Below, one piece after another: positions 20,679 through 34,709 of a stretch of DNA of 46,952 nt. Positions within the stretch are counted from its first letter, which is position 1. Each line of letters starts with the position of its first letter. Both the position numbers and the translations under genes were made by a program. Under the pieces are notes generated by a model that had not been told where the DNA came from, made no database searches, and saw only the letters and a list, made by a program, of their open reading frames with translations. This DNA comes from an uncultured Phycisphaeraceae bacterium. Its GTDB lineage: Bacteria > Planctomycetota > Phycisphaerae > Phycisphaerales > UBA1924. The stretch is taken from positions 1-46,952 of the forward strand of contig CALCCF010000039.1 in assembly GCA_937899905.1 (NCBI GenBank), in the 5' to 3' direction.

Positions 20679-22202
20679 TTAGCCCAGAAGCTGGAGGACG
20701 GACTGGGGCTGGCTGTTGGCCAGCGAGAGGATGTTCGTCGACGACGAGACCAGGATCTGGCTGCGGGTCAGGGCAGCGGTCTCGGCGGCGAAGTCGGTGT
20801 CACGGATGACCGAGTCGGCCGCTCGGGTGTTCTCAACCGAGATGGCCAGGCTTCGGATGGTGGCGCCAACGGTGTTCTTCTGGAAGGCACCGAGGCGGCC
20901 GCGGAGGCTCGAGACCTGCTCGATGGCCTCGGAGACAACATCCTGGGCACCCGACAGGTCATCGCCGTCGGCCAGGTTCAGGCTCTTGCCCGAGGCGAGG
21001 TCGCCCAGGAAGCCGTTGTCGGAGTTACCCAGGTTGCGGACGGCGACGTTGGAGATGCCCAACGAGACCTTGCCGGCGATGTCGACCTGACCAGCGAGCT
21101 GGAAGTCGGCACCACCGCCGGTGACCTGGAGGGTCGGCTGGCCGGCGCTGGCCTCGACGGCGCCGAGGGTCTGCGAGGCGGCGGTCGCGAGGGTCAGCTC
21201 AACATCGAGGAAGTCGGTGTTGATCCGAAGGTCCTTGCCGTCGGCAACCGCGCGGACACCGTTGATGGTGCCGGCGACGTCCTGGCCGAGGTCGCGGATC
21301 TCGTTGGTGGCGGCGGCGAAGGTGCTCGTCGCGGTGGTCTCGGCGGTGCCGAAATCGTCGGCTTCCAGATCGAAGATACCGATGCCCGTACCGGTGATGC
21401 CGGCGTCGTCGAGCACGCGGACGGAGACGAACTCGTCCGAACCGAAGTCCTCGCTGGCCAGCACGATACCGGTGCCCGAGACCGTGGCGGTCACGCCGGT
21501 GACATCACTGAACTGGTTGATGGCGCCTGCGACATCGGCAACGGCCGTGGTGGAGCTGAAGCTGAACTCACGGCTGCCGAGGCGGCCGGCCACCTCGATA
21601 CGGAAGTCATCGCCGCTGCCACCGAGATCGAGGGTGGCGCCGGTGGACAGGAAGAAACCGGCCTGCTGGGCGGACTGGGTGACGAGAACGTCGACATCGA
21701 GCGTCGCGCTCTCGAACTTCGCACCGTTGACCTTGAAGTCGGTGACCTCGCTGGCAACGTTCTGGGCGCGGTAGTCGAAGCTGCCGTTGAGGAGCTTGGT
21801 GCCCTGGAAGCTGGTGGCCGACGCGATGCGGTCGATGGTCTGGAGGATCGAGTCAACCTGCTGCTGGTTGGCCGACTTTTCCTGCTCGCTCAGACCGGCC
21901 TGGTTGGCGGTCGTGGTCAGCAGACCCTGGAGCTCGTTGAGGAGGTTGGAAACTTCCTGGAGACCACCCTCGGCGATGTTCACGACCTGGTCGGCGCGCT
22001 CGGCGTTGCCGATGGCGGCGGTCAGGGCGGTGGCCTCGGCCCGGAGGTTCTCCGAAGCGATGAGGCCGGCCGGGTCGTCCTTACCGCGGTTGATGCGGGT
22101 ACCGGTCGACAGACGCTCGAGCGACTGGCTCAGGTTGGTGTTGTTCAGGCCGAGCACACGCTGGGCGAGAAGCGACTGCACGTTGGTGTTGATGCGACTC
22201 AT
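20679..22202 (-). CDS. fliC: Flagellin, copy 1 (507 aa)
   Basis: Flagellin polymerises into the filament. The conserved ends are clear: MSRINTNVQSLLAQ...LSQSLERLSTGTRINRGKDD at the N-terminus and SVIRDTDFAAETAALTRSQI...SQPQSVLQLLG at the C-terminus. The centre is variable and includes a stretch (AVADVAGAINQFSDVTGVTA, DFGSDEFVSVRV) that matches the flagellin IN motif pattern. ATG at 22202 has GGAGGA nine bases upstream; the longer frame is rejected. It has its own leader with a candidate sigma-28-type promoter and CsrA-type hairpin. Cells export it through the flagellar apparatus, and FliW would bind it in the cytoplasm. Confidence 0.97.
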   Translation of the reverse strand: MSRINTNVQSLLAQRVLGLNNTNLSQSLERLSTGTRINRGKDDPAGLIASENLRAEATALTAAIGNAERADQVVNIAEGGLQEVSNLLNELQGLLTTTANQAGLSEQEKSANQQQVDSILQTIDRIASATSFQGTKLLNGSFDYRAQNVASEVTDFKVNGAKFESATLDVDVLVTQSAQQAGFFLSTGATLDLGGSGDDFRIEVAGRLGSREFSFSSTTAVADVAGAINQFSDVTGVTATVSGTGIVLASEDFGSDEFVSVRVLDDAGITGTGIGIFDLEADDFGTAETTATSTFAAATNEIRDLGQDVAGTINGVRAVADGKDLRINTDFLDVELTLATAASQTLGAVEASAGQPTLQVTGGGADFQLAGQVDIAGKVSLGISNVAVRNLGNSDNGFLGDLASGKSLNLADGDDLSGAQDVVSEAIEQVSSLRGRLGAFQKNTVGATIRSLAISVENTRAADSVIRDTDFAAETAALTRSQILVSSSTNILSLANSQPQSVLQLLG

Positions 22203-22210
22203 TTGCGAGA

Positions 22211-22246
22211 TCCTCCGTGAACCCGGACTCCGTGGGTTGTGTCCGG
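22211..22246 (-). promoter_or_regulatory. CsrA-type binding region in the leader of flagellin copy 1
   Basis: Two ACGGA pentamers lie in the leader on the minus strand: one (22214-22218) overlaps the GGAGGA ribosome site, the other (22229-22233) sits in the loop of a hairpin whose CCGGAC/GUCCGG stem spans 22223-22246. ANGGA in a loop plus a second copy at the Shine-Dalgarno is the known CsrA arrangement. Binding is inferred. Confidence 0.6.
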
Positions 22247-22334
22247 CGTCCAACCGCGGGGGTCAAGCGTCCCCGCCTCGTTCGCCCGAGTGGCGCTGGC
22301 GTCCATACCAGGGCCTCGCTCGTGCTTGGTGGGG

Positions 22335-22362
22335 GGATCGACGGAACCGGAGGGGCGATTTA
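22335..22362 (-). promoter_or_regulatory. Candidate sigma-28-type promoter of flagellin copy 1
   Basis: On the minus strand TAAA (22362-22359) is followed after 16 bases by GTCGAT (22342-22337), close to the flagellar consensus TAAA-N15-GCCGATAA. It would give a leader of about 125 bases containing the ACGGA hairpin. The match is partial. Confidence 0.4.
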
Positions 22363-22399
22363 GTCCAACTTGGCAATCTGGAGAAAATCGAGCGCAGAC

Positions 22400-22433
22400 G
22401 ACCACGAGCCCGGTTTTGACCGAGCTCGTGATC
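22400..22433 (-). terminator. Long hairpin between the two flagellin genes
   Basis: A 15-bp stem (two G-U pairs) closes a CAAA loop, about 45 bases after the stop of flagellin copy 2. A smaller CGCCCC/GGGGCG hairpin (22452-22471) comes first. On the minus strand the run TTTT comes only about 12 bases later, so termination may be partial; the opposite orientation has a better U-tract. Confidence 0.45.
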
Positions 22434-22478
22434 GAATTTTGTTAGGTTTTTCGCCCCAAGTCGTCGGGGCGGTCTGGT

Positions 22479-24038
22479 TTAGCCGAGGAGCTGGAGGACG
22501 TTCTGGGACTGCTGGTTGGCCAGGCTGAGGACGGTTGTGCCCGAGCTGGCCAGGATCTGGGCCCTGGTCAGGAGGCTGGTCTCGGCGGCGAAGTCGGCGT
22601 CCCGGATGATCGACTCGCTGGCGGTGAGGTTCTCAACGGCCAGTGAGAGCGAACGGATGTTGGTCTGGAGGGTGTTTCGCTCGAAGGCGCCCAGGCGGCC
22701 TCGCACGATGGTGATCTCGTCGATCGAGGTGTCCGCGATCCGGCTGGCCGCGGTGAAGTTGCCGCGGTCCTTGCTCGCGGCGAGGCTGTTCTCTCGGCCG
22801 GTCTTGAGCGACTCGAGGAACTCGAGCGACCCCTCGACGATCGTGCCACCCAGTCGGGTGGCCGCCACCGAATTGACGCCGATGTTCACCTGCTGCTGGG
22901 CGACCACTTCCGAGCCGAGCTGGAAGAGCGAGCCGCCGCCGGTGATGTTGAAGGTCGACGTCGTGCCGGCACTGGTGGCAAAGTCCGCGGTGAGGGTCAT
23001 CTCGAGCGAGAGCTGGGTGCTCGCGGTCGAGACGTTGAGGCCGTCGCCGCTTGCGAGTGCACCGTTGATGATCGCTTCGACGTCGCGGCCGCCGTCGCGT
23101 ACGGCTGTGAGCAGATCGGTGCCGACACTGCCCCACGGGAACGGGTCGTTGATATCGATCGGCAGGCTGTCCTCGAACTTGTAGGTCTCCCAGACGCCAC
23201 CGGTCGGCGGAGCGGCCAGTCGTTCTACGGAGACGAATGAGCGTGAGCCGTACCCCTCGCTGCGGAACACGAGGCCGCTGGTCGCCGCGCCATTGATGAG
23301 TTCTGCGACAACGCCGGTCGAGGGCGTGAGTCGATTGACGGCATCGACGACATCGTTGAACGTCTGGCCGCTCGTGAACTCGAGGCTGACCACGCCGTCG
23401 GGGCCGCGAACCTCGAGGACGACGGTCGAGAGGATGGTGCCGTTGAGGGGATCGCCCGGGGTGGGAAGATCGCCACGCACGTAGAGGCCACCCTGCTGCG
23501 CGGAGTTGAGGATCTCGACGTTGACGTCGAGCGCGTCGTCTTGTGAGAAGCTCGCCGCACGGACGTTGGTCTTGGCGATCGCCGAGAGCGCGATGCCCGA
23601 GGTCTGGTATCCGAGCGAACCGTCGAGCAGCTTCAGGTCGCCGAAGGACGCGGTGTCGGCGATTCGAGTGATCGAATCGATGGCCGAGTCGATCTGGGCC
23701 TGGTTGGCCGCGATCTCCTCGTCGGAGAAGGCACCGGTGTTCGCCGCCTCGACAACGAGTGCCTTGATGGAGTTGAGCAGCTCGTTGATCTCGGTCAGCG
23801 AGCCTTCCGTGGTCGCGATGACCGCCGAAGCGCGCTCGGCGTTCTTGATGCCTTGCTCTGCGCCGCGGATGTTCGAGCGCAGGCGCTCGGAGATAATGAG
23901 GCCGGCGGGATCGTCCTTGCCTCGGTTGATGCGCAGGCCGGTCGAGAGCCGTTCCAGCCGGACATCGAGTTCACGATTGGTCTTCGTGAGATTCGATCGA
24001 GCGATCATGCTGGGCACGTTGGTATTGATGCGAGTCAT
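22479..24038 (-). CDS. fliC: Flagellin, copy 2 (519 aa)
   Basis: This second flagellin has the same conserved ends (MTRINTNVPSMIARSNL, ERLSTGLRINRGKDDPAGLI; SIIRDADFAAETSLLTRAQI, NQQSQNVLQLLG) but a clearly different core, with VVLEVRGPDGVVSLEF and GYGSRSFVSVERL corresponding to the IN-motif region of copy 1. ATG at 24038 has GGAGGATC upstream. The gene follows csrA after 94 bases with no obvious own promoter, so it is likely expressed with the fliW-csrA transcript. Its leader has an ACGGA hairpin like copy 1. The two flagellins may form different filament segments or filaments of mixed composition. Confidence 0.97.
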   Translation of the reverse strand: MTRINTNVPSMIARSNLTKTNRELDVRLERLSTGLRINRGKDDPAGLIISERLRSNIRGAEQGIKNAERASAVIATTEGSLTEINELLNSIKALVVEAANTGAFSDEEIAANQAQIDSAIDSITRIADTASFGDLKLLDGSLGYQTSGIALSAIAKTNVRAASFSQDDALDVNVEILNSAQQGGLYVRGDLPTPGDPLNGTILSTVVLEVRGPDGVVSLEFTSGQTFNDVVDAVNRLTPSTGVVAELINGAATSGLVFRSEGYGSRSFVSVERLAAPPTGGVWETYKFEDSLPIDINDPFPWGSVGTDLLTAVRDGGRDVEAIINGALASGDGLNVSTASTQLSLEMTLTADFATSAGTTSTFNITGGGSLFQLGSEVVAQQQVNIGVNSVAATRLGGTIVEGSLEFLESLKTGRENSLAASKDRGNFTAASRIADTSIDEITIVRGRLGAFERNTLQTNIRSLSLAVENLTASESIIRDADFAAETSLLTRAQILASSGTTVLSLANQQSQNVLQLLG

Positions 24039-24046
24039 CGCGATCC

Positions 24047-24079
24047 TCCGTGAGCCGAAGCCGCACTCCGTCGCGGCCT
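24047..24079 (-). promoter_or_regulatory. CsrA-type binding region in the leader of flagellin copy 2
   Basis: ACGGA occurs at 24047-24051 (overlapping the GGAGGA ribosome site) and at 24067-24071, the latter in the eight-base loop of a hairpin (24058-24079; GCCGC/GCGGC core extended by G-U and A-U pairs). An alternative fold between the two motifs (24050-24066) carries a UUCG tetraloop. The layout mirrors that of flagellin copy 1. Confidence 0.6.
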
Positions 24080-24132
24080 GGTGGAACTACTCGAAGCGCC
24101 CTTTCGTGCGGCGCCGGGCTTTCGCGCCCTAA

Positions 24133-24498
24133 TCAGGTCGAAGCCCTTCTGCGTGCGTTGTTGCCGTTCAGCGGCGTGCGCGGTGCGCGTTCGCTGGCGG
24201 CCTGTCCGTTGTCCGTGGTTGGTGTGGCCGCACCGTTGATGCGCCCGGCTGGGCTGAGCCCCGCCTTGCGTCCGGGCCTGATCGCCGAATTGAGGGCGTT
24301 GAACTCCGTGCCCTGGGTCTCGGCGGCCTTGCGGTTCTCGGCCTTGATGGCGTCGTACACCTCCTTGCGGTGTACGGCTACTTGTGGTGGGGCGTTGATC
24401 CCGAGTCGGACCTTGTCGCCCCGGATATCGACGATGGTGATTTCCACCGCATCGCCGATCATGATCGTTTCGTCGCGTTGCCTTGACAGCACCAGCAT
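24133..24498 (-). CDS. csrA: Carbon storage regulator CsrA with long C-terminal extension (121 aa)
   Basis: CsrA is a dimeric RNA-binding protein that blocks translation by covering GGA-containing ribosome sites. The core is complete: [31 protein letters not shown] and [10 protein letters not shown], including R44, needed for RNA binding in characterised homologues. Beyond residue 60 there is a tail of about 60 residues, low-complexity and ending in the basic sequence NNARRRAST, twice the family's usual length. It sits between fliW and the flagellins, the arrangement in which FliW sequesters CsrA until flagellin is plentiful. Its own leader carries three ACGGA motifs. Confidence 0.96.
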
Positions 24499-24560
24499 CC
24501 GTGCGCTCCGTGAAACCCCCGCGGGGGTCGCCCTTGTGGCTGTGTCCGTTCATCGCCACA
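24498..24560 (-). promoter_or_regulatory. csrA leader with three ACGGA motifs and two hairpins
   Basis: ACGGA lies at 24545-24549 in the loop of a perfect TGTGGC/GCCACA hairpin (24535-24560), at 24507-24511 in the ribosome site, and at 24498-24502 overlapping the ATG. A 14-bp palindrome ACCCCCGCGGGGGT (24515-24528) lies between. This suggests CsrA autoregulation. Confidence 0.55.
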
Positions 24561-25015: not shown

Positions 25016-25031
25016 GCCGTAATCCTCCGGC

Positions 25032-25045
25032 CGGGCTTTCGCCCG
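25032..25045 (-). other. GNRA-loop hairpin just before the fliW ribosome site
   Basis: CGGGC pairs with GCCCG around a GAAA tetraloop in the fliW leader, ending five bases before GGAGG. It contains no ACGGA. It might affect initiation or mark an RNA processing point between flgL and fliW; no evidence decides this. Confidence 0.4.
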
Positions 25046-25132
25046 CGTGTGTCCCGTATGTGAACCCTGTGTGCGAATCTTCGAGTCTGAGTCGTTGGGT
25101 ATGAGTCGTTGAATCCGATCACCCCAGGGCGC

Positions 25133-34502: not shown

Positions 34503-34709
34503 TCAGTTGGCCTCCCCTGGGTTGGGCCGAAGGCTCACCCATTCATCGGCGAATGGCTGGGGCGCTTGGTCGTGAGCCGCGACCAGCTGGAGCAGGCCCA
34601 GGGCCTGGCCGGCGATCTCGCCGCGACGCATCATCTCCCGCGTGCTCGCGCCTTGGGCGACGCGTCGCACGAGGTGGCTGGTGGGTGCCGCGGGGCTCTG
34701 ATAGCGCAT
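34503..34709 (-). CDS. Small unknown protein at the head of the flagellar block (68 aa)
   Basis: ATG at 34709 has GGAGG six bases upstream, and the stop touches the flgF start codon. The product starts MRYQSPAAPTSHLVRR, has a helical middle (TREMMRRGEIAGQALGLLQL) and ends DEWVSLRPNPGEAN. It has no signal peptide or membrane helix. A longer frame back to 35057 crosses a tRNA gene and is rejected. I do not recognise a family. Good ribosome site, tight coupling and operon position support real coding; a role in rod assembly or control of this block is only a guess. Confidence 0.65.
   Translation of the reverse strand: MRYQSPAAPTSHLVRRVAQGASTREMMRRGEIAGQALGLLQLVAAHDQAPQPFADEWVSLRPNPGEAN

Follow-up and report, generated by a model that had tools for sequence, protein, structure and literature searches.

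The window considered here, a stretch of 46,952 nucleotides (nt) representing the whole contig C39 of the 3.63 Mb draft genome of an uncultured Phycisphaeraceae bacterium (order Phycisphaerales, phylum Planctomycetota), harbours a flagellar gene cluster with fliW, csrA and two flagellin genes. Judged by comparative sequence analysis, these genes very probably form a FliW-CsrA switch for flagellin homeostasis which includes the control of csrA by its own product. Such a switch would probably adjust flagellin production to the assembly of the flagellum, as it does in Bacillus and Campylobacter. Direct observations are the genes, the key residues and the sites, together with the extent to which relatives conserve these and show covariation; CsrA binding, bridging, repression and relief by FliW are inferred. 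Three features carry the proposed switch: an extended CsrA consensus at the ribosome sites of both flagellins, a covarying ribosome-site hairpin in the relatives and ANGGA hexaloops in the csrA leaders all over the order. A sequence-only reading of the window had already suggested that a single CsrA/FliW switch controls both flagellins and csrA; this suggestion is well supported by the comparison, mostly through features which that reading had left unused.

The adjacency of fliW, csrA and both presumed flagellin targets, on which the suggestion was built, is confirmed by the gene order on the minus strand, which is flgK, flgL, fliW, csrA, flagellin 2 and flagellin 1. The arrangement flgL-fliW-csrA-flagellin was found in 52 of the 59 fliW loci of the relatives, mostly metagenome-assembled genomes labelled Phycisphaerales, Phycisphaeraceae or Planctomycetota; five of the remaining loci have fliW-csrA without a nearby flagellin, two have no csrA within the stretch, and a FliW match is missing from one of 60 relatives. 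The closest relative is L093 with a FliW identity of 89 %. The CsrA of the window scores above the cut-off of the NCBIfam CsrA models and its FliW under the own cut-offs of the NCBIfam FliW models. The solved structure closest to the fliW product is the FliW chain 5dmb_A, and the nearest structures of CsrA and FliW are chains of this single entry, 5dmb. L4 and R44 are described as RNA-binding residues of CsrA (PMC7652899). In Campylobacter jejuni, FliW is bound by V51 and N55 of CsrA, the usual substitute at position 51 being isoleucine, and N55 matters in Bacillus subtilis too (PMC7829508). The protein of the window possesses L4, R6, R44, I51 and N55. Leaving out two truncated proteins, L4, R6 and R44 are present in all 123 distinct CsrA sequences and N55 in 122 of them; the FliW-binding pair V/I51 and N55 is likewise found in 122/123, with L079 as the exception. 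In addition, a second, diverged CsrA-like protein of 80 amino acids (aa), in which N55 is not aligned, is encoded at G000:C102:11553-11795 on the minus strand (L091), and such a second match exists in all seven genomes of the genus.

At the ribosome sites of both flagellins the motif ANGGA lies within the CsrA consensus WCANGGANGW (Table 1). The full consensus covers the ribosome site in 113 of the 115 distinct flagellin-2 leaders, both exceptions belonging to the genus of the window, and in 82 of the 117 distinct flagellin-1 leaders, and ANGGA is found there in 115/115 and 111/117, respectively. Leaders with identical ends were counted once, and two fragments, one in L049 and one at the edge of L066, were left out of the flagellin set. 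In controls the consensus was seen in 4/442 other genes of the same loci and in 5 of about 820 genes of this genome, two of which are the flagellins themselves. Apart from the whole-genome pattern searches, the genome background comprises 820-822 predicted gene leaders from 1.07 of the 3.63 Mb; its gene starts and those of the other controls stem from a simple caller, not from an annotation, which missed the csrA of the window, so that this gene was added by hand to the scan of 822 leaders. Control leaders were 80 nt long for genes of the same loci and 110 nt for genes of this genome. A hexaloop stem of at least five pairs at the ribosome site is formed in 93/115 flagellin-2 leaders versus 3/442 and 1/820 control leaders.

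Outside the genus of the window the flagellin-2 motif mostly stands in a ribosome-site hairpin, CAAUC-ANGGAG-GAUUG, directly before the ATG, and an upstream ANGGA hairpin exists in only 2 of 108 distinct leaders. Among 63 distinct sites outside the genus, pairs 1-5 of this ribosome-site hairpin are kept in 63, 63, 62, 57 and 57 and pair 6 in 37, and all four letters occur at the second position of the loop. The six stem pairs are formed in 89.7 % of the alignment cells compared with 84.1 % in shuffled alignments (reached by 0 of 500 shuffles) and 12-55 % in slid controls; cells changed on both sides number 20, against 8.0 in shuffles (again 0/500). The comparison of relatives for compensating stem changes, proposed in the sequence-only reading, was positive for the ribosome-site hairpin outside the genus; the stems of the window's own upstream hairpins hardly vary. 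It is very unlikely that the ACGGAGG strings are merely strong ribosome sites of highly expressed genes accompanied by chance hairpins. ANGGA at the ribosome site is indeed common in this genome (173/822 leaders) and the folding energies are ordinary, but the ten-letter consensus and the stem are each rare in other genes, the covarying stem keeps bases beyond the ribosome site, and the upstream hexaloops of csrA need no ribosome site at all.

These csrA hexaloops agree with the known loop preference of CsrA, which favours GGA in a hairpin loop, most loops selected by systematic evolution of ligands by exponential enrichment (SELEX) having six nucleotides (PMC7652899). Within 110 nt, 45 of 117 csrA-leader hexaloops read ANGGAN and are carried by 41 distinct stems, compared with 6/779 in this genome; the corresponding counts for loops in which C, G or U replaces the first A are 0, 0 and 1. 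Counted by leader, a CsrA-type site in front of csrA exceeds chance order-wide (45/121 versus 6/820). Furthermore, 33 of the order's 121 distinct csrA leaders have an ANGGA loop of 5-8 nt on at least five pairs in the zone from −75 to −23, compared with 6/820 genes of this genome and 4/442 control genes. A rival explanation, in which the ribosome-site hairpin of the flagellins acts alone as a thermosensor or slow-start element, or together with another GGA-binding protein, appears very improbable: the conserved stem does sit on the ribosome site, but it does not conceal the site, which is displayed in its loop; the neighbouring csrA is marked by ANGGA loops too, and the loop letters are those stated to be required by CsrA (PMC7652899).

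Within the genus of the window the structured flagellin-2 site is the upstream hairpin with its ACGGAG hexaloop. Its stem is part of the minimum free energy (MFE) structure at both lengths of one folding and at three of four lengths of another, the exception being 80 nt. Upstream and ribosome-site ANGGA are 20 nt apart in 7/7 genus genomes, a bridging distance, since spacings of 10-63 nt are allowed for CsrA bridging with an optimum above 18 nt (PMC7652899). In the proposed mechanism a free CsrA dimer would block translation of its own mRNA and of the two flagellin mRNAs by binding the ANGGA that covers each ribosome site; on flagellin 2 one dimer would probably bridge the hexaloop at −33 and the ribosome site at −13. 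Export of flagellin would release FliW, which would bind the CsrA helix with I51 and N55 and lift the block. A relief of CsrA by FliW upon flagellin export is the model for B. subtilis (PMC6529632).

Several observations weigh against the proposed switch. The genomes are related, so the leader counts are not independent. The 91-nt leaders of all three genes are not more stable than shuffled sequences (z 0.80, 0.51 and 0.42). In flagellin 2 of the genus the ribosome-site stem is reduced to 1-2 pairs, the leaders of G002 and G006 lack the full consensus, and the upstream hairpin shows one-sided stem changes only, none compensatory, among the seven genomes. For the hairpin of the relatives, four stem pairs with a double change compare with 1.8 in shuffles and 11 further pair types with 7.9, each value being reached by 6 of 500 shuffles; because slid controls reach up to 4 double-change pairs and 12 double-change cells, the covariation test is good, not overwhelming. 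The ACGGA of the flagellin-1 upstream hairpin exists in this genome alone among the seven of the genus, the other six folding different hairpins, and the full consensus was found at the ribosome site of none of 121 csrA leaders, ANGGA being present in 108 of them.

The last two points lead to narrower readings. According to the first, CsrA would control flagellin 2 alone and flagellin 1 would escape, the two filament proteins obeying different rules. Flagellin 1 leaders do fit the consensus less often (82/117 versus 113/115), form weaker stems and have no conserved upstream hairpin. However, 82/117 far exceeds the 5/820 of the genome, and within the genus the flagellin 1 consensus is kept in six of seven genomes and a pentaloop stem of at least five pairs, partly G-U, is possible in all seven at the ribosome site, so this reading is considered unlikely. 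In the MFE structure of the upstream hairpin of flagellin 1 a lone pair is added within the 12-nt loop of the centroid, and the spacing of 15 nt to the ribosome site is found in this genome only. A third flagellin-like gene lies outside the cluster (G000:C79:30830-31210, minus strand, L264); the sequence ahead of its likely start, CCAAAGGAGGGCGCC, departs from the CsrA consensus.

According to the second, the flagellins are CsrA targets but csrA lacks self-control in this genus, its hairpin being a remnant or due to chance. This, too, is considered unlikely. The poor fit of the csrA ribosome sites speaks for it, as does the hairpin itself, which is absent from the 91-nt MFE structure of the window, where another structure is formed, and which is clear as GUGGC/GCCAC with GGA in the loop in five genus genomes and altered in two, G002 and G006. 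On the other hand, both order-wide excesses described above, ANGGA hexaloops and upstream stems of at least five pairs in the same zone, speak against it.

The evidence on which the sequence-only reading relied, ACGGA in a predicted hairpin loop of each of the three leaders, fared unevenly. The positions are correct on the minus strand, with upstream copies at 22229-22233, 24067-24071 and 24545-24549 and a second copy at the ribosome site of all three leaders (22214-22218, 24047-24051 and 24507-24511); a further ACGGA at 24498-24502, also minus, overlaps the csrA start. The hairpin holds for flagellin 2 and mostly for csrA; that of flagellin 1 fell away for want of conservation. The bare pentamer was rejected as evidence, as the window contains 72 copies where 114 are expected and 35/822 ribosome sites carry one. 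The scan of 822 leaders for the background rate, as the reading had advised, gave hairpin-loop ACGGA in 5 and hairpin-loop ANGGA in 14 (MFE structures, stem of at least 4 pairs, loop of at most 14 nt). Just three of the 822 combine an upstream hairpin ANGGA with a ribosome-site ANGGA, two of them being these flagellins; flagellin 1 enters this class via an ANGGA at −104, not via the hairpin of the sequence-only reading, and the csrA leader does not belong to it. Ahead of the 68-aa gene near 34709, whose ribosome site was feared to be of the same kind, the sequence is GCACGGAGGC, which departs from the consensus. A scan for promoters and terminators yielded nothing exceeding shuffles. Two ACGGA seven bases apart occur in the coding region of the csrA tail (window 24205-24216, minus strand) and do not belong to a leader.

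Table 1 Features of the flagellin, csrA and fliW region in the window
Feature	Position	Strand	Remarks
fliW, CsrA antagonist, 149 aa	24566..25015	minus	Pfam PF02623, 124.4 bits, cut-off 25
csrA, 121 aa, long C-terminal extension	24133..24498	minus	Pfam PF02599, 84.6 bits, cut-off 27
Flagellin 2, adjoins csrA	22479..24038	minus	Flagellin_N and Flagellin_C (Pfam); N-terminus MTRINTN
Flagellin 1	20679..22202	minus	Flagellin_N and Flagellin_C (Pfam); N-terminus MSRINTN; ATG ending 22202
csrA upstream hairpin, UGUGGC-(14 nt with ACGGA)-GCCACA	24535..24560	minus	Centroid fold
csrA ribosome-site ACGGA, A at −13	24507..24511	minus	7/7 genus genomes; WCANGGANGW not fitted
Flagellin 2 upstream hairpin, AGGCCGCG-ACGGAG-UGCGGCUU, A of ACGGA at −33	24058..24079	minus	Hexaloop kept in 7/7 genus genomes
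Flagellin 2 ribosome-site CsrA consensus, UCACGGAGGA, A of ACGGA at −13	24044..24053	minus	Consensus in 5/7, ACGGA in 7/7 genus genomes
Flagellin 1 upstream hairpin, CCGGAC-(12 nt with ACGGA)-GUCCGG	22223..22246	minus	Centroid fold; weak
Flagellin 1 ribosome-site CsrA consensus, UCACGGAGGA, A of ACGGA at −16	22211..22220	minus	6/7 genus genomes

The closest precedent is the flaA leader of C. jejuni with two ANGGA stem-loops, the second of which lies on the ribosome site (PMC4894983), and because it matches, the flagellin part of the switch belongs to a known type. The ANGGA motifs are 21 nt apart in flaA and 20 nt in flagellin 2 here, and covariation support among relatives as well as the antagonist FliW are shared; homologues of CsrB/C are absent from the C. 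jejuni system as it is described (PMC4894983). In contrast to flaA, csrA leaders carry ANGGA hexaloops order-wide, the fliW leaders of relatives contain a structured element, and the ribosome-site stem is weak in the genus of the window. Moreover, CsrA binding has been demonstrated for flaA, whereas it is predicted for the sites reported here. The hag system of B. subtilis resembles the window in its two flagellin-leader sites, one over the ribosome site, in adjacent fliW and csrA and in partner switching with flagellin (PMC6529632; PMC7652899). However, there is one flagellin there and two with a site here, and a site in the csrA or fliW leader is not mentioned in the relevant parts of these two articles. 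A high-affinity hairpin just upstream of a ribosome-site target is also known from the glgC type of bridging by Escherichia coli CsrA (PMC7652899), where control is described to be exerted by small RNAs and not by FliW, as proposed here. Finally, the fliW leader of the relatives recalls the decoys CsrB and RsmZ (PMC4894983; PMC7652899) in its consensus ACAGGANGU site and an often present further GGA loop, but it precedes fliW, has fewer sites, gives no sign of a separate RNA and was undetected in the genus of the window.

This structured RNA before fliW (e.g. L100:8907-8983, L142:8908-8984 and L067:2087-2160) consists of a closing stem UCGGCC/GGCCGA, the sequence GACAGGANGUC and a variable stem whose loop frequently contains GGA. 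GACAGGANGUC, which includes the ACA, GGA and GU reported as invariant or nearly so in SELEX for CsrA (PMC7652899), is present in 68 of 127 distinct fliW leaders of relatives and in 2/442 and 2/820 controls. In 38 of 69 fliW leaders the best hairpin within 48 nt downstream of it holds GGA in the loop, compared with 7.3 on average (at most 13) in shuffles and 17/443 control leaders, and the 67 downstream hairpins have 53 distinct stems. A covariance model built from 16 leaders detected the element in 17 of 61 genomes (three of them from its training set), once each and always just upstream of fliW. Over 100 loci it gave 58 matches at E ≤0.1; a stray one lies at L043:1654-1721, the other 57 in fliW leaders. 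A change on both sides was counted in 91 cells, against 17.2 in shuffles; these counts lean towards the model because the alignment was fitted to it and includes the stray match. Misalignment of the middle stems in an initial fliW-leader alignment left RNAalifold with the closing stem alone. Among 18 fliW loci searched with Rfam 15 at E ≤1, eight of which carry the element according to the covariance model, the single match (L007, E 0.99) was under the gathering score. The model found the element in none of the seven genus genomes; in the window it scores no better than chance (best E 0.14), with no match extending into the fliW leader at 25016-25132. At L181:13349-13400 (plus strand), GACAGGAGGUC followed by a strong hairpin resembles part of the element. 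The gene about 50 nt further on presumably encodes a cytochrome oxidase subunit, as we read its protein.

In the relatives CsrA would repress fliW mRNA or be titrated by it, and protein and RNA antagonism of CsrA would meet in one fliW transcript. In the genus of the window, loss of the fliW element and a shift of the structured flagellin site to a position upstream of the ribosome site would amount to a natural rewiring. That CsrA of the Phycisphaerales controls every gene of the switch, the antagonist fliW included, and that this genus lost the fliW element and moved the flagellin structure upstream, is a tentative proposal which may about as easily fail as hold.

Beyond the order the flagellin site becomes scarce. 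The pattern CARTCANGGAGGATTGN{1,5}ATG was found in 17 of 392 Planctomycetota genomes, and its reversed form in none; this order, represented by 31 genomes, accounts for 15 of them, and a flagellin follows 16 of the 17 matches. Outside the order the consensus is fitted in 4 of 30 flagellin loci (22 genomes). Because so few of these genomes and loci fit, the switch site is not general in the phylum. One of the four, from a different family of the same class, reads CUUGUC-ACGGAG-GAUAAG, an identical loop on a different stem. UUGUUC-AGGAGGUU-GAACAA stands at the ribosome site of L295 (G115:C45), a flagellin from another family within this class, with AGGA in place of ANGGA.

A wider regulon was sought with WCANGGAGGWN{2,8}ATG, which gave 12 matches in this genome and 3 in reverse. 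Among its matches with frames of at least 40 aa, just the flagellins have relatives among the 23 matches of G002, G004 and G006; the others are for this reason taken as chance, and the wider regulon was rejected. Two of the genes with the extended ribosome-site pattern, L233 and L235 (G000:C20 and C31), have MqnC and MqnE as best NCBIfam models, both below the cut-off, and no relative among the pattern matches of the three genus genomes. An AAGGAG hexaloop on a 9-pair stem lies at the ribosome site of a short gene at G000:C113:10999-11018 (minus strand, L244), which we take to be transposase-like from its protein.

The flagellin part of the switch is already known from Bacillus and Campylobacter, and the differences lie in the csrA part and in the rearrangement seen among members of the order. 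By comparison of genomes, the analysis supports a FliW-CsrA flagellin switch in the Planctomycetota, for which literature searches by the name of the phylum brought up no worked example. The predicted CsrA targets include csrA and, in the relatives, also fliW. If CsrA binds the fliW leader element, it would control its own antagonist as well. The fliW leader is thus a concrete test case, and the genus of the window, in which the element was not detected, offers the natural comparison.

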